Shown here: one piece after another, positions 20,390 to 62,432 of the stretch
Layout: each line of letters starts with the position of its first letter
Position numbering within the stretch: position 1 is the stretch's first letter
DNA from: Cucumis sativus
Taxonomy: Eukaryota > Streptophyta > Magnoliopsida > Cucurbitales > Cucurbitaceae
Assembly (NCBI RefSeq): GCF_000004075.3
Contig: NC_026659.2
Coordinates: 30,088,272-30,152,271 of the forward strand
Reading direction: 5' to 3'
DNA: 64,000 nucleotides
Translations under genes and position numbers: made by a program
The notes under the pieces: model-generated
The model's input: the letters and a program-made list of their open reading frames with translations, nothing else
Databases searched by the model: none
What the model was told of the DNA's origin: nothing

Positions 20390-23300
20390 TCATATATGTT
20401 GATGTTGCAGCTGCAAAAGCCTTGAGTAAGCCCCCTCGGCTCGGCTTAGCAGCTCGTTATGGCTACCTTGTTCAACAATGCGCCCATCTTGGACCACACC
20501 AATGCTGTCCACACTCCTGATTGTGGATAAGCGATGTGCTACAACCACCGTGGTTCGGCCCCTCATGAGCCTTTCGAGAGCCTCTTGCAGCACACACTCG
20601 GACTCGGCGTCGAGGGCGCTGGTGGCCTCGTCGAGGAGGAGGATTGTGGGGTCCTTGAGAACAGCCCTAGCAATAGCTATGCGTTGTTTTTGGCCACCAG
20701 ATAGCTGAACTCCCCTTTCTCCAACTGGTGTGTTGTAGCCATCAGGTAGTCCACTTACAAAGCCATGAACATTGGCTGCTCTTGCTGCCTCTATTACTTC
20801 TGATTCTGTTGCTCCATCTTTTCCATATGCAATGTTATCAAAAATGCTGGCAGCAAATAAGGCTGGCTCTTGTTGTACTAATCCAATTTTCAGCCTCAAG
20901 GATTGTAAGTTTAGGCGTCGAATGTCCTTCCCGTCAATCATAACTTTCCCGGTAAGCGGATCGTAGAATCTCTCAATCAAAGCAATCACTGAACTCTTCC
21001 CTGATCCACTAGCTCCAACCAATGCCTGGCTCTGACCAGCTCTGATTCTCAAATTGAGATCCTTAAACACCATGACATCAGGTCGAGACGGGTATGCGAA
21101 GTCAACATGCCGTAGTTCAATTTCTCCACGAAGCGTCTCAACAGTCTCTGCCTCAGGATCATCAGGGTCAATCCTCGTTGGGCGATCGAGAATCGAGAAA
21201 ACAGAACCGATCGATTCACCACCTCTAACAATCTCGGGAGCAAGACTAACAGTTTCCGCCACAGAATTGGCAGTAACAACCAAGACAACGAAGACTTTGA
21301 TCACCTTAGAAAATGTTGATCCACCATTGCTGACCAAATGGACACCATACCACAACACTAAAGCTTCAGAAGCATAAAGAGCTAGCTGCGATATACCAAA
21401 AAGAATCCCTGCCGTTTGGCTTCGACGGAGACTCTGTCGCTGTGGGATACGAAGCTCATGGCAAAACAAAGAAAGGATCTTGTCTTGAGCATTGAAGGCA
21501 GCTACTGTTCTGATATTGCTCACACCTTCCCCTGCAATCATACTTGTCTTCGCGTGGGCCTTTGCAGTATCCCCAGCAAATCCTTTTAATGAAAGTTGCT
21601 GCATAATAAATAACAATGTTCAATTTAAGTCATTAAACTCATCTTTAATTCAAATCAACCTCACTAATAAAAGTTAAATTAAGAACAAGCTGAGTTCTAT
21701 TAACATGGGGGTTGCTCTTCTTTTTACTAAACATGGAAAAAGAAACAATGACAAAGACATTTATAAGTTGCAGAAAGTAATGTCCTTTAGCAATCAATCG
21801 TAACTTTCACTGTATTAGAAGCATGCGCAAATTTTACAATACTGTTCAACACAAGACAAATGGTCAGATTCAGTACACTATATAGTTTGAAAAAAAAAAA
21901 CCATTAGATTTAAATCACTTTAAAGAGAAATTACTATAAGAAAAAGACAACAATGTATAATGAAGTCAGTCAGTTACAGAACTCTGCAGCTAAAAATACT
22001 ATACTATACCCCTTTTTTTTTAATTTTCATGGAAAAATGTGACGAGCTAAGTTTGAAAACTTTATATTATAAGAATGAAGATCACGGGGAGTGAGAATTT
22101 AGCTGCAGTTTTTCACATGGGGTTTCTGTCAAAAGCCAGAGAAAGAGCTCGGATTTCAAGGGAGTGAAAGATGGTCAAAACTTGAATCTTTTGAATAAAA
22201 AAAAAAAATACTGCAAAGATGCAGAAGAGTCGGTGTTTGTAAACATTTCAAAACAGAGAAACCAAGAAGGAAAATAAATAGGCATTGGGCTCGAAGAAAA
22301 AAGGTAAAACCAAAAACAGAACAAAAAACGCAGAATGGATTCTACTTGAAAAAATGAAAAGGGGGTGAGGAATTTTTTAGTAAAGTTTGAATCATGTTGG
22401 AATTTCGAAGAGGTTTCTCGTTGGTTGTTTGTTTATTTTATTATTACATATTAAAATTGAAAAGCTACGAACATTTTAAATACATATATTTCTTTAATGT
22501 TTATCACTGCAAAGACTTCAGAAGTTAGTGCAGAGCAGGCACGTGCAGAGCACAGAGATGGCAAGAGTTAAATATTTCAGGTTCTTTGTCGCTTAATAAA
22601 AGAATAGGACTTCAAATGCAGTGAAGTTATATTCCAAGAGCTGTAAAAAGCAAACTTCAAAGAATCTGACCCATTTCTTCAAAGTTTCAATTTTTCACTA
22701 ACTGCAGCTTACCTTTTTAGACTAGGGTCAACTCATGCAGGACTTGAAAGGAAAGATATATAAAACTAATCTTTTTTGTGTAGGTTGTTTTAAAATGCTT
22801 TGAAATAGACATTAATGGAGTTTTGGGAAATGGGTTTTGAGTTTTGAGTTTTGAGTCGTTTTACCTGAGCCATGTTGGCAAGAACAAGTAGAGGGAAAGC
22901 TGCAAGGATGAGAAGAGAAACTCTCCATTCAACAATGAATGCAACTATGAAAGATGTGAAAAGTGAAGTCATGTTTTGTAATATCACTGATATTCTTTCA
23001 GCTATCGCGGATTTTACATCAGCTGCATCAGTCGCTAATCTTGCTGCTACTAAACTTGAGTTGTGTTCTTCTTCATCGAACCATCCGACTTCATTCCTCA
23101 ATATAGCTAATATAACACAAGAAAGACAGCAAAGGATTGGATTTATTTCACTTTCTTTTATATTAATAAGGGTTTATAAGCTCAATGATTAATGATTGAT
23201 TTTTACCTGCGAGCATCATTCTTCTGACTCTGGTTGTGAGATTTTCGCCCATGATTGTAAAGAAATAATGCTGAATTAGATAAGCTACAACTGCGTAAAC

Positions 23301-50904: not shown

Positions 50905-53900
50905 TTATGAGGAAGAAAAGAGAAATGAAGAAGGGTGTATTTTAATCTTCCCATTTGGAAAAGTAATGCAACTCAATTTATGTTGACACCAACTTAGTTG
51001 TTTTCTTGTAATCTTCTTCATATTTAACATCCTTGACACCAACTTCAAATCCACCATTGTTAAGAAGCAAAGTTCATCATCAATTTCTTCATCTTCTTCC
51101 AATTCCTCTTTGCAATTCTTCAACATGCACTTTCTTCTCTTTACTATCTTCTTCAATTTTCTCTCTTTCTGCCAAAAAGAAAAGAAAAAACAAGTTTGTA
51201 TTTGAGTAATATAATTTAACAAAATTTCAATACATAAATGAAGTTTAATGGGAAAATAACAAACTTTTTGGAGATCTACGAGAAGTTGTGTTTGAACGTT
51301 GGAATGTGAAGGACTTGCAAATTCTTGTTTCGTTTCTAAATGACACGTTAAATTAGTCGAGATATGAACAAGTTTGTCCTTTCGAATGAACTGCCATAAG
51401 ATTCTTATCGATTCTTGTAGTATATCAATAAGTCTATCAATTGTAACTGCATTTTCCTTGTTATCTTCTTTGAACCCTCCTTCTTTCACTTCATCTTCTA
51501 CAAGCATAAAAGACAAACTTATACATAGTTAGTTTCTTTATCCACAGCTAACTATAAGAAACATATTAGATAAACATGGAGTTTTTATCTCACAAGAAAT
51601 TGACAAATGAAAAAAAAAAAAAAGAAGAAAAACTCGTGTATCTTATAGAGATCGAATGATGTTACCATCTTTCTTAAGTGAGATCCTCACCCAAATGGTC
51701 AAACAAAACTATATAATTATATACACTGTCTTCATGACTTTGCTTCTGGCTTTGATCTTTCTATTACTCTTTCTGTTACCTAATTAACATGTGATTTTCA
51801 TGACATTTTCGATATATAACATTTTAGGGGTTGTTTGCCCCGATGATTAATATAGGTCACTCTATGTTTGGCCCTAGTATTATTATAATCATAATACTAA
51901 GATTAGGATTTTCCTAATCCTATATTATGAGAATAGTTGTTCTCACCCTCCTTTCTCCTCTCTCATCTTCCTCACACCACCTCTCGTTAAACTCCAAATA
52001 TTTACCGAGTAACAATAGAAGCAAAAAGAAAAAGCATCGCTAACAAAAGCTGAAATAATAGTATGTACCTCAAACTCAGACTATTGTAATTCTTACACTA
52101 TTATAAGTCACTTATCGTCTCAAACGCCTCCTTAGATTTAAAAAATCATATCTATATTTTTACTACTAACGTACTTATTCCAAAATATAAATAATATCAT
52201 CATTTCAAACTATTTTATCTATTTGTTAATGAACAAAAAATAGAGAATTTGTACAAAAATAAATAAATAAAAGAATAAAGAACAGCCACGGAATGAACAA
52301 AAAAATCAAATTGATTTTTAAGTGTGTTTGGGTCACCAATTTCAATGGGTTATAGTTGTGACTACAATGTTCACTACGTATTCCAAGTATAATACTCAAC
52401 TATCGTTCCAAATATCCGTAAAAACACTATTGACTAATTTCAAAAGGTACTTCTAAATCATGTCTAATAATTATGATAGAAATCTATTCTAAAAGTTTAA
52501 ATATGATGTGGGACCTAAATCAAATATGATGGAACATTATGTAGGGATGAGGTTTTCGTTCTAAGTCATTACTGGCCATTGTATAAGTCAATCTTTCATC
52601 AAAGTTTTACAAAATTTTGCCTAAGAAAATAGTTTTGAAAAATTAAAGAGAGGTTAAGAATTTTAACACAAACTTTACAAAAATAGAGATTTACTGACCT
52701 TTGAGAAGAGGAACTTGAAGAAACTTTCTCCTAACAAGTCGACTTTTAACATAACATTCAACTCTCGACCCTTCTTCAATCTTTTCATTCTCCATAAATC
52801 TCTGTATCATCACTTTAAAATGCTCAAATTTCTCTGCAACTTCATTGAATCTACAACTTCCATAGTCTTCTCTCCCATAAATCTCCAAAGCTTTCTTATA
52901 TTCCCACACTATGAACTCCCAAGAAACCCATAATTGCACCACATACACCATCTCCATTTCTCCATCAATTCCTTTGTCTTCTTCTGTTTTCTTCTCTCCC
53001 TTACACACACAAAACCCCTTTGTTGAAACAGATTCCACCGACTCCTTCGATTGCATCATCTTCAACTCTGAAAAAATCGACTTGGGTCATCATTGATTCA
53101 AACAGAATTGCAAGGATGTTAAATGAAATCATGACAAGAACTGACCTTTTGCGTACGTTTTTTGACGATTTAAAATGTCGTATTTTCGCATCTTTTCTGT
53201 GTATTGCTTGTGGAATCTATGGAGTTCTTTTGTTAAATCTCTGTGGTTGAAGCTTTCTTGTTTCTTCTTCCATGGCTTTAAATCGTTTTCATTTGTTGTT
53301 ATTGAGTAATCTGTTTCTTCGGGAATTGATGGCAGCACAGATTTAGCTTTGGCTTTCATAATCTGAATTTGCAAAGCTTTTATAAAGTCATCATCTTCTG
53401 AGTCTTCCTCCTTTTCAAACTTATTTGTTTTGATAGAATCAACAAAATCACCTTTGGTGCAATCCAAATAATTTGGAGACAAATTTTCTGACCTTTCTCT
53501 AGAATGAAGAAAGGAATTTGGAGCAGGACGCGAAGGAATCGAGCTGTGTTGTTCAACAAAATCTTTCTCGTTGGCTTTGGCTTTCATATTATGGATTTGC
53601 AAAGGTTTTATAAGCTCATCAACTTCTGAGTCTTCCTCGTTTTCAAATTTATTTGTTTTGATAGAATCAACATACTCGTCTTCGATTCCGACATCATTGG
53701 TGCAATCCAAATCATTTGGAGACAAATTTTCTGACCCTTCTCTAGAATGAAGAAAGAAATCTGGAGCAGAACTCGAAGGCATCGAGCAGTGTTGTTCAAG
53801 AAAATCTTCCTCGTTTGAATCAACATTCTCTTTAGTTTTCAGAAATTCTTCATAAGTTGGAAACCGGAAGGTCAAAGCTGAAAAGGGATCTTCAGGCTGT

Positions 53901-57162: not shown

Positions 57163-57165
57163 TTA

Positions 57166-57325
57166 CACTAGAAGAAAACTACCCTACAATGACAGTTATA
57201 TATCTCAAAAAATGAATGGAAAAAAAAAAAACTGTCACGAAATATAAAATTTCGCGTTTTTGGCGGGAAAAGACGGAATTTTTCGGAAAACACTTTTCGC
57301 GACAGTTATTAACTGTCATAGAATG
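57166..57325. repeat. CACTA left terminus and subterminal repeats
   Basis: CACTAG terminus followed by GACAGTTAT, ACTGTCACGAAA, TCGCGACAGTTATTAACTGTCAT and related units in both orientations. Such arrays are the binding sites of the TNPA-type protein in En/Spm elements. Confidence 0.85.
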
Positions 57326-57394
57326 TTAGGGTTAAAAAATTTTTCTTTTTTCCTTTTCTTTTCTTTTTCCTTTTTCTTTCTTTTCCCTATTTCC

Positions 57395-58008
57395 TTCTTC
57401 CTCCCCGTGCGTCCTTCCCCTTCTCCCCAATCGCAACTGCCGCGCCTCTTCTCCTTCCTCTCGTACGCCGCGACGACTCCACCGTCTCCTTCTCCCTTCC
57501 CTTCCGTTTCCTTCCTGCCGCAGCCCAGCCGCAGCCAGCCGTCTTTCTCTTCCATTTTCTTCCCGCCGTAGCCCGCGATCTGCCGTCTCCATCTCCGGTT
57601 CGCGAAGCAACCTTGCAGCAGTCGTCCCGCGCGCCGATCTGCCATCTCCATCGCCGGTTCTGTCTTCGTCGAAGCCCGAGCCGCCGTGTGAACCAGTAAC
57701 CGCCACGTTCGCCGCTCACAACCGCCACGTTCGCCGCTCACAACCGCCGTGAAGCCAGCCGCGCAACCTTCGTTCCAACCGCTGCACTGCCGCACGATTC
57801 TCCGGCCACGTCTTCTTTAGCCGACCGCTGACCGACCCACACTTAGGATTTTGCTGCGAGTTCGACAGTCGTGCGTTGAGTGTTGGGAGTAACCTTGGGC
57901 TCCCTTAAATTCACAACCAAATTGTGAATTGTTGAGGGTTCAGTTCGCCAATATTTCGGATTTGATTCATTGGATTTAGTCGATTGAAGAATTTGCATAG
58001 AAATCGAG
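57395..58008 (+). other. GC-rich exon-like island captured in the CACTA element
   Basis: About 57395-57850 is strongly GC-rich and pyrimidine-rich (CCGCCGTC, TCTCCATC, GCCGC phrases), in sharp contrast to its surroundings. It is followed by a leader-like stretch ending in the donor ATCGAG|GTAAGAG at 58008/58009 (plus strand). A 21-22-bp unit CGCCACGTTCGCCGCTCAC is tandemly repeated at 57701-57744. It looks like the 5' UTR or first exon of a host gene that was picked up, together with its splice donor. Long frames on the minus strand (57316-57795) are low-complexity and not considered genes. The parent gene is not identified. Confidence 0.5.
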
Positions 58009-59329
58009 GTAAGAGATTTTCTACTGGACTCAATTGTGATTGTGAACTGTATGTGTGTTGAATGTATACTGTGGTTTGACTGAAAATATATATGAATGCA
58101 TGTGAATTGAAGTAGACATAACGTCGAATGTATATCGTGAATGTCATGGAAGATATATATAAGTGTGTGTATGTTGACAGGACAAAGATTGTAGATTGTG
58201 TTGGTATGAGATATAGATATGAACTTGTGATTCTCGTTTAGATTGGGTGTACGATTACGCTAAAGTATGATTGGGTTAATAAGGATTGGCCTGTTTCTTG
58301 TTTGTTGTTTTTTCTTAGTAATGGTAGTGTGTGAAAGGGAATTTGATAACTCTATATATTGTTTAATTATGGTTTTGAATTCTGTTTTGTGTCTTTAAAA
58401 GGACGTTGAACTTCAAAATCGTTTTAATAGGGTCCTTGAACTTTGATTTTTTCTTTAGGGGAAGGGGTGTGTAAGGGATTTTGATTTTAGTCATTGAATG
58501 CCAGTGTGTAGCGCCCACCTCCAGGTGACGGATTTTCAGCAGCCACCGTCGCCCTCTTCCAATTTTGTTTTCGACAACCCTCTCTATTCTATGTTGCTGT
58601 TTCCAATGGGGTTGTATTATCTTCTGGAGTATACATGTTGGATTTGTTGTAGATGTAGCCATGGTTGCTTCCTCCTTCGTTGCTTATTCTTAACTTCATG
58701 TAACTTATAGCCATCTAATTCGTTTCTTCTTCCTATTTTTTCTCCTCTTCTAATGGCATCTTTCATTCTCTACATCCAACTTGCGCAACCGTGATATATT
58801 CTCCAAGGTAAGTATCTCTTTAATGGACGTCAAAAGACTGCATCTTGAAAAATGATTTCATCCAAGATATATTCATATGGGCTTTTTTATTCCTTTGAAA
58901 GAATGCCATTCATATATTACACATCCTTATACCTGAGTTTACAAGGTTGTTATAGTACTTTCGCGTTTCATGAGTGAAAAGATAGAATCAAGTTGCGGAA
59001 TTACGTTCATTTTTAGAGCTCTTAAGTGATTGAAGATAGTTGATGTATATTTATTTTCTCAAAAGTCACATTTTTTGCAAGTTTGGTTTACTTTGGATTT
59101 ATTAAAGATAATACCAGTTCACTTATTGATTCCATTCATTCCCGAAAAAATTCTTTAAAAAAATTTAGTTTAACACCAAGAATCGCTTTGAGGATTTATC
59201 TCCTTAAGGGTTGTCGGAACCATATACTGAACATCTACAATACGTTTGATCATAGTTAACTTTACAATGATCTAGTTGATAGTCTTCCTATTTGTTGAGC
59301 TTCTCTTTTAGATTGAAGGAAAGGGAAAG

Positions 59330-59420
59330 ACTTGGCTAGGTTGTGGCAAGCAAACTTCTTCGCTATTATGTGGAGAAATTTAGAGGGGAGGCTAGGGAGT
59401 TAGAGAGTTTTTTTGGAAAA
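59330..59420 (+). pseudogene. Possible LINE reverse-transcriptase tail fragment
   Basis: The plus strand reads roughly LWQANFFAIMWRNLEG, then a stop, with RVF a little further on. This resembles the W..NFFAI.W..W.ER..RVF pattern near the zf-RVT end of plant LINE-type reverse transcriptases. It is short, interrupted and decayed; the assignment rests on pattern memory only. Confidence 0.3.
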
Positions 59421-59559
59421 AAAAAAAAGAGACGGGACTTTACATTAAGAGAATGAAAAAAAAGACCAATGTTCAAAGAAGTGAAAAAGAGCAACATAGC
59501 ACAAAAAAAAGACATAGGAACATAATGCAAAAAGTAAGCTAGAGAGGTGATAAGGATAA

Positions 59560-59745
59560 TTAGTATATTTTAGTTAATTGGTTAATTGTCTTATTTTCCT
59601 GTAAGGCTATAGATAGCCAATTTAGAGTGTATTTGAACCTCTTGAATATCTTTCCAATATAGAACGTTGTTCTTGGAGAGCTTTTTCTCATCTCTAAGGA
59701 ATGAGATTTCTCTTGTTCCAGAATGGATTTGGCATGGTACTCCAA
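59560..59745 (+). mobile_element. Copia-type LTR 3' part with primer-binding-site remnant, inside the CACTA element
   Basis: Order of phrases: TTGTCTTATTTTCCTGTAAG, GGCTATAGATAGCC, TTCTTGGAGAGCTTTTTCTC, then TTGGCATGGTACTCCAACC. In plant copia elements the LTR end is followed by TTGG..TGGTATCAGAGC (initiator-tRNA-Met site); here GGCATGGTA is kept and the rest has diverged. No gag/pol follows. Probably an acquired or nested fragment. Confidence 0.45.
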
Positions 59746-59900
59746 CCTGCTGCATCAAGAGGTTTAATTATTCAGTTTGGGCATTGATCACTAGGACTTT
59801 TTGTAATTGTGATAATGATCTTGTTCTTTTTTATTAGATTGTTTTATGTGATTAGTCATTGACTCCTTTTTATGAGTATTACGTTTTTTTTGTTTTTCTT

Positions 59901-59980
59901 ATTGCAATTTGGTTTTGGTATTTCTGTTGTATGTCTTTTTATTATTATTATTGCAATTTGGTTTTGGTATTTCTGTTATG
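59901..59980. repeat. Direct repeat of 28 bp, 50 bp apart
   Basis: The phrase beginning ATTGCAATTTGGTTTTGGTA occurs at about 59902 and again at about 59952, separated by a short (TTA)n-containing spacer. Confidence 0.8.
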
Positions 59981-60186
59981 AATAGAGTTTTGTTTGCCCT
60001 TGGTTCTTTTATTTTTTCAATAAACGTTCGGTTGCTTAAATAAAATGGTTCTCTGGACAGAAGTGAATTGTGAGTTTACTGAATTTGGTAAATTTAGAAG
60101 CATTCCTCTGTGCATCCTCTAGTAGATTTTGGATTTTCCTCTTCCACTGTAATGGAATTGGACCGAGAAAAGTTAATGTGTTCCAG

Positions 60187-60291
60187 TTATTTTACGGTGC
60201 TGGCACTTACATGTTTGGAATTGATGATGAACGAATAATTGATGCTACAAGGGCTGGAAGCATTGCTCATCTGATCAACCACTCTTTCGAA
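60187..60291 (+). pseudogene. ATX-type (trithorax) SET-domain exon fragment carried by the CACTA element
   Basis: The plus strand encodes LFYGAGTYMFGIDDER followed by IIDATRAGSIAHLINHSFE, then the donor GAA|GTATGTATT (60291/60292). An acceptor-like TTCCAG lies just upstream (60181-60186). GAGTYMF.IDDER.IDATRAGSIAHLINHSCEPNC is the core of the SET domain of plant ATX1/ATX2-type H3K4 methyltransferases. The conserved cysteine of the NHSC motif is phenylalanine here, and the continuation exon (PNC..) is absent or decayed (a weak AACTGTTGCTCC echo lies near 60528). A single exon piece with a hit in a structural motif inside a transposon indicates a non-functional captured fragment. Confidence 0.8.
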
Positions 60292-61473
60292 GTATGTATT
60301 ACTTTAACAATTGATTTACTTTTTATTTTTTCCTTTTATGTTAATGTTCTTTATCCTCATGAGATGACTCATTAAATTATGTGTCAATAGAATTATCTTA
60401 TATCATAGTGCTCTATGGAGATGAATGCAAGTTAGCTAAATTTTTCCTTAGATGCTTGAAAGTTAGAAGAGAAATTTAACTCCGGTTTTTCTCTCATGGA
60501 CTAAGCTATCTTATTCTTACACAGTAACTGTTGCTCCTCACAGAAGTGTTCAAGGATAAATAAAGGTTCATATTAGAAGTGGACGTCCATTAGTTTTGGT
60601 ATGTATGTAAATTATTTTAAATCTAAGTATCTGATTTCCTAATAGTTGAAAACCTTAGTTTATTGACAAGAAATCAAATGGTTACTTCTGAAGTTGGTTG
60701 ATTGTATTTGGTTATGTCTACTAATGAGAATGACTTTACCTTAAGGGGATAGACTTTAGTTTTGGTATCTCCAATTGAGAATTTAGCCATTGTGCTTACT
60801 CTTTATGGAGTATCTAAAGACAAGAAATCGACACTCCAATGCTATGAAAATTTTCCTATAAGGTAACATTTATAGTCTCATGTTCATTTGGTATGTTATT
60901 TTATTTGCTTACTTTGTAATACTATTCTATTTTAGAGCTATTTAGTCAATTGATTGTAAATTCTGACTACAGCTGATGATATGTGGGGAAGATATTCATA
61001 GTTCATCTTTATTGGCGATGATTGCATAATACAAACTGTTTAACTCTAAGGATTACAAATTGTCGTACATGTATTGTCGTAGGCTGTTTTGTTCTAAGGA
61101 CTAGGAACAACCCAAGAAGTTGTTCAATTTGCAGTGGCCATTTGGTTGGACGTTCTTCTTCTCCTTGATCTCTTTCTCCTCTTCTTAGGAACTTCATTTT
61201 CATTATCAGATTTGAAGAGGGACCACCATGAGTGGGGTAGTAAAATGAATAGAGAATGGGAGAGTGAGCTGGGTATGTTTTTGGTATGTGTATTCTAGAG
61301 AGAAAGAGTAGCAGCATGTTTTTGTTTGCTGTGTTTGCCTAATATAGTCCTCATGGTCTTCTCTTTTCATTTCATGGAATCAAGTGTTGAAGTTCTTGTT
61401 TGTGTTCTGTATTTTGTTGAGACGTTAATTTAGTTATTCATTGACTGTACGTATGTGTTATGGATTCTTTGTA

Positions 61474-61640
61474 GGTTCAACTGGAGTCGACAAGTTCATG
61501 AGTTTTGTTTCAAATATCATTTCCAGAAACGAACATTCTCGGTTGGTCCAGTCAAATATATTCGAATGCTAGTTAAGATATTTTTTTATTAAGGGTTAGT
61601 ATTTCGTACATGTGGATTAATGAAACTTGTATTAAGATGT
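61474..61640 (+). other. Probable 3' exon of the CACTA-borne chimeric transcript
   Basis: An acceptor TTCTTTGTAG|GTTCAACTGG is followed by about 150 bp of mid-GC sequence without a long frame. It could be the last exon of a transcript starting near the GC-rich island. This is inference from splice signals only. Confidence 0.3.
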
Positions 61641-61849
61641 ACAAATATTATAAATCGTATTATAGTGTATATATATTAAAGTGTTGGCTATTTTCTTGTA
61701 CATTGGTGTGAAACTTGTATAATTTCAAATTTGTCATTCTCAGCTACATTATTGTCATTCTAATGGTTCGTGTAATGGTGGAGCTGCATGGAGAACAGAA
61801 TAAAACTATAAGAAATTGAGAAATGCGATAGTTAATAGTTGTTGTAAAT

Positions 61850-62429
61850 TGGAGAACGATGACAATTATTTAACAAGATAAATTGTCACGATTGCTCTAT
61901 ATGTGACAGGAATAACATGTCGTCATAAGATAAACAATGACAATTTTTTTTTAAAAAACTGTCACGATTGCATTATATTTGACTGGAAAAAAATGTCGTC
62001 AATGGCAAAACAATGACATTTAATGTTATCGAAAAACTGTCACGATTGCACAATCGTTGACTGGAAAAAAATGTCGTCAATAACTAAACAATGACATTTT
62101 TACAAAAAAAAAACTGTCGCGAAAAACATATTCATGACAATTAATACATGTCACGATAATAGAATTCGTGACAATTATTTAACTGTCGTTAATAAAGAAA
62201 TGATGATAGTTATTGAATGTCATAAAATAAATTATGACAGTTATTGAATGTCGTTGAATGTTGATTAACGACATTTATTTCATGTCATAAAACAACCTAT
62301 TGCGACAGTTTTCAAAAACTGTCGTCGAAGGCCTTTCCATGACTCCCGCTTCTATGACTGAAAATAACTGTCGCGAAATCCGTTCGCGACAGTAAATAAC
62401 TGTCGTCGTAGCCCACTTTTGTACTAGTG
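61850..62429. repeat. CACTA right subterminal repeat array and terminus
   Basis: Dense array of short units in both orientations: AACTGTCACGATTG, GACAATTATTTAAC, GACATTTA, ACTGTCGCGAAA and similar, spaced about 15-40 bp. It ends with GTACTAGTG at 62429, followed by the TTA duplication. The array matches the decayed one at 270-790. Confidence 0.9.
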
Positions 62430-62432
62430 TTA

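Follow-up and report, generated by a model that had tools for sequence, protein, structure and literature searches.

A likely Pack-CACTA element carrying fragments of two host genes in the cucumber genome

Is a 5,264-bp interval bounded by CACTAG motifs in the cucumber genome a transposon that has taken up host genes and, if so, by what route did its cargo arrive and what could still be expressed from it? The interval occupies positions 57166-62429 of the window, which is the whole 64,000-nucleotide stretch of Cucumis sativus DNA analysed here (C5:30088272-30152271), and corresponds to C5:30145437-30150700. An earlier note, made from the letters of this stretch, had described it as a non-autonomous CACTA transposon with captured host exons. 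Searches of the whole genome (226.6 Mb, 88 contigs) indicate that the core of this description is very probably right (a probability of about 93%): the interval is a complete non-autonomous Pack-CACTA element with the ends of a resident CACTA family and fragments of host-gene DNA inside. None of the listed transposase matches falls in its span, and source-like loci were found for the pieces of host genes that it holds.

The features that delimit the element are given below, with positions in the window.

57163-57165, no strand: left copy of the target site duplication, TTA (direct reading)
57166-57179, plus strand: left terminus, CACTAGAAGAAAAC (exact-match search)
57180-57340, plus strand: left subterminal TGTC/GACA region (repeat search, motif counts)
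61840-62415, plus strand: right subterminal TGTC/GACA array (repeat search, motif counts)
62416-62429, minus strand: right terminus, CACTAGTACAAAAG, read inward (exact-match search)
62430-62432, no strand: right copy of the target site duplication, TTA (direct reading)

On direct reading, the exact CACTAG at both ends, the length and the TTA duplication were all as the earlier note had put them. Aligning the two ends yielded an imperfect terminal inverted repeat (arms 57165-57202 and 62393-62430, 76% complementary over 38 nt). The subterminal arrays reported there also withstood counting, as TGTC and GACA together occur 26 times in the last 600 bp, against a shuffle mean of 6.3 (maximum 12, 200 shuffles), and 4 times in the first 200 bp, against a mean of 0.7 (maximum 3, 200 shuffles), while the middle of the element has no excess (18 against a mean of 22.2). 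Moreover, the ends are multi-copy. The left terminus has 92 exact occurrences in the genome and the right terminus 99, compared with 4 and 1, respectively, for reversed-pattern controls; pairing these exact termini, together with one right end taken from the similarity search with the right 600 bp, gave 55 left/right pairs less than 20 kb apart on the same strand. The further copies that the earlier note anticipated are thus present. By similarity, the left 601 bp had at least 57 genome matches (40 scored of 506 candidates) and the right 600 bp at least 41 (40 of 466), numbers that are lower bounds because only 40 candidates were scored per query.

CACTA elements usually duplicate 3 bp of their target. 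Twenty stretches of 10 kb (L025-L044) were taken as a sample of sister copies, and 17 other copies were read with both ends, leaving out L038, L043 and L044, each of which has one end missing. A perfect 3-bp duplication flanks 16 of these 17. Three of the copies repeat flanks already represented in the sample (L033 has the flanks of L032, L037 those of L030, and the flanks of L039 are 97% like those of L027); counted by site, the duplication is found at 13 of 14 sites, and adding the window copy makes it 14 of 15. The pairs L032 (C5:17641103) and L033 (C2:18328109), and L030 (C3) and L037 (C19), share flanks on different contigs, which reflects either recent segmental duplication or duplication in the assembly.

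Empty sites were sought by joining 60 + 60 bases of flank and searching the genome, with 40 places scored per search. The joined flanks of L027 ran uninterrupted across the junction, at 100% identity, in all 40 scored places; those of L026, which carries the same cargo as the window copy, did so in 39 of 40 at 85-92%, small indels being present in part of these places; and those of L031 found one scored place of 40, at 88% and with 3 extra bases. Paralogous empty sites therefore exist for these three copies and were not found for the window copy itself. For the remaining copies a missing match is uninformative, because repeats belonging to other copies filled the 40 scored places. The insertion of L027 and L039 sits in a satellite-like, near-identical repeat of very high copy number, present on at least five chromosome-sized contigs. 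An alternative would be that chance CACTA motifs surround a degenerate gene fragment and that there is no transposon at all. No point in support of it was found, and the multi-copy ends, their pairing, the target duplications and the empty sites refute it, leaving it barely conceivable.

A Transposase_21 profile matched at least 151 places in the genome, with 150 of 435 candidates scored, and among the matches listed none lies within C5:30145437-30150700, where forward stop-to-stop frames do not exceed 138 aa; the absence of a transposase of its own was thus rightly noted. A Transposase_21 match on the same strand, 1.9-2.8 kb from the left end, was found within at least 11 of the 55 pairs, which is a lower bound as 49 of the 151 places were compared; ten of these pairs measure 6.9-11.6 kb and one 17.8 kb. 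In the relative at C1:13737379 (L046, pair length 9,959 bp), an 823-aa frame from ATG, read within the first 4.6 kb, has Transposase_21 (E 3.5e-94), DUF4218 and Transpos_assoc domains. Its first 60 bp are nearly the same as in the window element, identity over the left 0.7 kb is 72% and patchy, the right 600 bp are 98% identical, and both elements have a GC-rich leader. Since same-ended elements of ~7-12 kb encode a tnp2 transposase, the window element is regarded as non-autonomous, and a tnp2-type transposase from these relatives would act on it in trans, excising the element and reinserting it with a 3-bp duplication. Overall, the CACTA (En/Spm) features found are the CACTA inverted ends, the 3-bp duplication, the subterminal repeat arrays and the tnp2-encoding relatives with the same ends; those of Pack-CACTA are the absence of an own transposase, the fragments of host genes and, from the sister copies, precise insertion.

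Several observations weigh against this identification. The flanks of L041 have no matching 3-bp duplication (1 of 17 copies), the copy at C1:12777578 was seen by its right end only, and L044 is without a left terminus. The 17.8-kb transposase-bearing pair may be a wrong pairing. The joined flanks of the window copy had no scored match among the 40 places per search, which is in itself uninformative, and transposition was not observed as such. In addition, duplications of 5 nt are reported for maize and rice CACTA elements in PMC8903248, against 3 bp here.

The interior of the element can be divided as follows.

57341-57843, plus strand: GC-rich, C/T-rich leader, the element's own 5' end, common to copies with other cargo
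57758-58276, plus strand: leader/intron block common to a high-copy repeat of the L050 type (sequence comparison)
58582-59171, plus strand: BONZAI (copine)-like gene piece, intron-exon-intron, 92% to C3:6370825-6371412
58760-58807, plus strand: BONZAI C2-domain exon fragment, 16 open codons, 3 amino-acid changes
59221-60998, plus strand: block common to C7:7761500-7763290 (L047), 96.5% identity; L047 is without the CACTA 3' end
59295-60582, plus strand: ATX/trithorax-type SET gene piece, introns included, 88% and 93% to C6:2279600-2280768
60196-60291, plus strand: SET-domain exon fragment, 32 codons; R to G, V to I, NHSC to NHSF
60773-60998, plus strand: piece of a repeat that recurs at C4:9091115-9091341 (93%); L047 already has it joined to the ATX piece
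60993-62429, plus strand: the element's own 3' region, common to transposase-bearing copies

Copies with different loads have in common the end regions from 57166 to 57726 or more, and from 61261 or 60993 onward. The GC-rich island, which the earlier note had counted among the cargo as exon-like, was rejected as a captured host exon, because copies with other cargo have it as well, as does, in patches and at 72%, the transposase-bearing L046; it belongs to the 5' end of the element. As to its ultimate origin, L050-type repeats share parts of the leader sequence: 57758-58276 is 95-97% identical to the L050 repeat, a type with 537 first-look candidates. Among 40 listed L050 relatives, six pairs share a strand and lie 4.1-6.9 kb apart, a spacing that suggests an LTR-like repeat. 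An 85-nt GT-AG intron of L050 (L050:330-414) is precisely missing from the element's leader at 57957-57959, and the donor GAG|GTAAGA after 58008 is intact and common to L050. For the adjacent 58277-58581, no source outside CACTA copies appeared among the matches listed (40 scored of 433 candidates).

We then turn to the two host genes. Judging by sequence similarity, 58582-59171 is a second captured host gene, overlooked in the earlier note. Its only match outside CACTA copies among those listed (again 40 scored of 433 candidates) is C3:6370825-6371412 (L048), a BONZAI 1-like copine locus whose exons match Protein BONZAI 1 at 7e-48. In the captured exon the parental acceptor has been lost (GCAG to GCAT), and the donor AAG|GTAAGT, with GTAAGT at 58808, is intact. 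The SET-domain exon fragment, in turn, had been recognized from the beginning, and it matches an ATX/trithorax-type gene on C6 (L045), the exons of which match KMT2A/MLL SET chains and, at 3.6e-18, the Pfam SET family; downstream exons of the C6 gene, joined by eye, complete the end of a trithorax-type SET domain. Here as well the parental acceptor is lost (AG to AC at 60194-60195) and the donor GAA|GTATGT, with GTATGT at 60292, is kept. In the C6 gene, the segment 59295-59892 already lies next to the SET exon, and it therefore travelled with the gene piece; it may be what the earlier note called a retroelement piece. Both gene pieces lie in the direction of the element's leader, with repeat pieces also between the ends, and as both retain intron sequence they were captured as DNA.

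The C6 gene is probably not the immediate source of the ATX piece, a role for which sequence comparison makes the C7 block, or its ancestor, the likelier candidate. When the three sequences are compared, 77 sites unite the element with C7 to the exclusion of C6, and the two alternative groupings have 18 and 15; moreover, L047 has the same lost SET acceptor and continues beyond 60998 into the L049 (C4-type) repeat, and together these findings argue for an intermediate locus. The ATX piece would accordingly have passed through the C7 duplicate before entering the element. The possibility that C7:7762187 is a decayed CACTA copy was considered and is disfavoured, since beyond the junction the block carries on into L049; an exact search within 1 Mb of it, which mutated termini would escape, found no CACTA termini. 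A single event in which gap repair or template switching accompanied transposition and drew all cargo pieces straight from the two genes would fit the mere ~3 nt (TAT, 60993-60995) shared at the right cargo junction. However, the 77 sites, the shared lost acceptor and the extension of L047 into L049 count against it, and we consider it unlikely. Unlikely as well is a relay that went partly via RNA, in which the leader would be the spliced form of an L050-type transcript, joined to the host-gene pieces, one of them already duplicated at C7. If that were true, a DNA transposon would have gained a ready-made promoter, first exon and donor, that is, a mobile promoter-exon cassette.

What, then, could be produced from the element? 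The earlier note had proposed a chain of splice sites in one orientation. The sites exist as letters, with donors after 58008 and 60291 and an AG at 61473-61474, and to that extent the proposal stands; however, the AG at 60185-60186 lies nine bases upstream of the parental SET acceptor and was created by a base change, so it is not the parental site, and neither captured exon retains its inherited acceptor, which makes a neat splice chain doubtful. The GC-rich leader contains the three longest forward frames as well as the longest frame on the reverse strand (166 aa); fourth in length among the forward frames is one of 102 aa that covers the SET exon. The survey of stop-to-stop frames found no sizeable chimeric open reading frame in the element. 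The cargo would then be a passenger that yields no functional protein. Most likely the element is silenced and seldom, if ever, transcribed, and small RNAs against the ATX and BONZAI parent genes are possible.

A different role would be that of a mobile exon trap, in which a promoter in the leader and the donor after 58008 drive spliced chimeric RNAs that alter host transcripts or give rise to small RNAs. The intact leader donor common to L050, the intact donors of the two captured exons and the open 102-aa frame over the SET exon, preceded by a new AG, all speak for it, as does the precedent of Tgm-Express1 in soybean, described in PMC1947982. Against it stand the loss of both parental acceptors, the short forward frames and their concentration in the leader, and the amino-acid changes in the captured exons. 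We therefore hold such a role to be improbable and favour a largely silent passenger cargo.

The copies that share this cargo allow capture and spread to be placed in order. A 701-base query (59900-60600) had 16 matches in the genome, 12 of them in CACTA copies and 4 elsewhere (C7:7762187, C6:2280173, C7:12837088 and C6:5538528); the CACTA-borne matches comprise 9 over the whole query, including the window's own and L044, and 3 partial ones, including C1:12777578. Over 58026-61260, the window copy shows 0-6 differences in ~3,235 bases from each of six others (L026, L029, L032, L033, L035 and L036). L025, L034 and L044 are of a second SET type, with 45-47 differences from the window copy, mostly in a replaced stretch. 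As divergence from the source-like loci amounts to 7-12%, the burst is younger than the capture, and the near-identical cargo copies are the outcome of a burst that we infer to be recent.

The ends of these copies differ more than their cargo. Comparing the end regions (57166-58025 plus 61261-62429) with the core (58026-61260), the window copy and L026 have 27 differences in 2,005 bases and 0 in 3,235, respectively (Fisher 5e-12), and the excess is about fourfold or more in every pair of the first SET type. Even the same-site pair L032/L033, with 0 substitutions in ~4 kb of flanks, has 5 differences in 2,018 end bases and 0 in 3,281 core bases (Fisher 0.008). When copies of one SET type are compared with those of the other, no clear end excess is seen, for which the replaced stretch is partly responsible. 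In the sister subfamily that carries other cargo the excess is confined to some pairs: L030/L037 have 15/1,727 in the ends against 5/3,394 in the core, L030/L039 hardly any excess (32/1,705 against 51/3,306), and in L027/L039 the direction is reversed (6/1,708 against 32/3,306). A plain explanation for the excess is polishing errors of the assembly in the high-copy ends; alternatively, the ends could really be hypermutable. Copies might also have exchanged their ends, a cause that is weakened by the alleles: at 66 biallelic end sites among six copies of the SET type, the minor allele recurs in ten other aligned copies at 11 sites and is absent from them at 55, although copies that were not fetched could hold it. 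The count used only gap-free biallelic sites, took the minor allele arbitrarily at 3:3 sites, and left out L033 and L037 as same-site copies, as well as L044, which has no left end.

Capture of host genes by En/Spm-type elements is known from the Tpn1 family of morning glory. Pack-CACTA elements, as described in PMC8903248 and, for their mechanism, PMC13317346, occur in Arabidopsis, maize and rice, with CACTA ends, gene fragments and multiple copies, sometimes drawing on several source loci. The cucumber element resembles them in its CACTA ends, target duplications, missing transposase, fragments of coding genes and copy number, and differs in its host and in the genes captured; the main text of PMC8903248 mentions neither "cucumber" nor "Cucumis". 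The closest single element among those compared is Tgm-Express1, a 5.7-kb soybean CACTA element that, according to PMC1947982, carries intronic and exonic pieces of five host genes, and for which insertion into a gene and spliced chimeric RNAs were demonstrated. Both are CACTA elements with intron and exon pieces of more than one host gene; here, in contrast, two genes were identified and the inherited acceptors are broken. No earlier report of this element was found in the open-licence literature, judged from titles and the beginnings of abstracts; one cucumber paper among those listed mentions Pack-MULEs (PMC6305189). Altogether, we regard the element as ordinary Pack-CACTA biology in an unusually well documented example. 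One genome shows a nearly complete history of gene capture (transposase-bearing relatives, source-like loci, a likely intermediate, a near-identical burst and empty sites), so that the order of the capture steps becomes testable with pan-genome data. Apparent exons within such elements can moreover be the element's own leader, or exons with splice sites that are already broken.

The sister subfamily (L027, L030, L031, L037 and L039) carries different cargo, with an exon of DUF751, also named Ycf33 (L030, Pfam E 8.5e-7), so this CACTA family has captured host DNA of different kinds. An 801-base query from this cargo had 11 genome matches, of which five are partial at 79-87% and six near-identical; five of the six were read as CACTA copies, the sixth being C2:11596819. 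At L030:1037-1474 the DUF751 exon is joined to the CACTA leader in a 146-aa open frame, for which no credible solved relative was found, and a 55-aa frame of L030 has a weak match to designed PPR proteins. In a third class of copies (L028 and L041), six frames of L041 were without any Pfam family. Elsewhere in the window, two host genes lie on the minus strand: an ABC transporter exon at 20393-21619 (ABC_tran and ABC_membrane) and a DUF1666 protein at 50908-51528.

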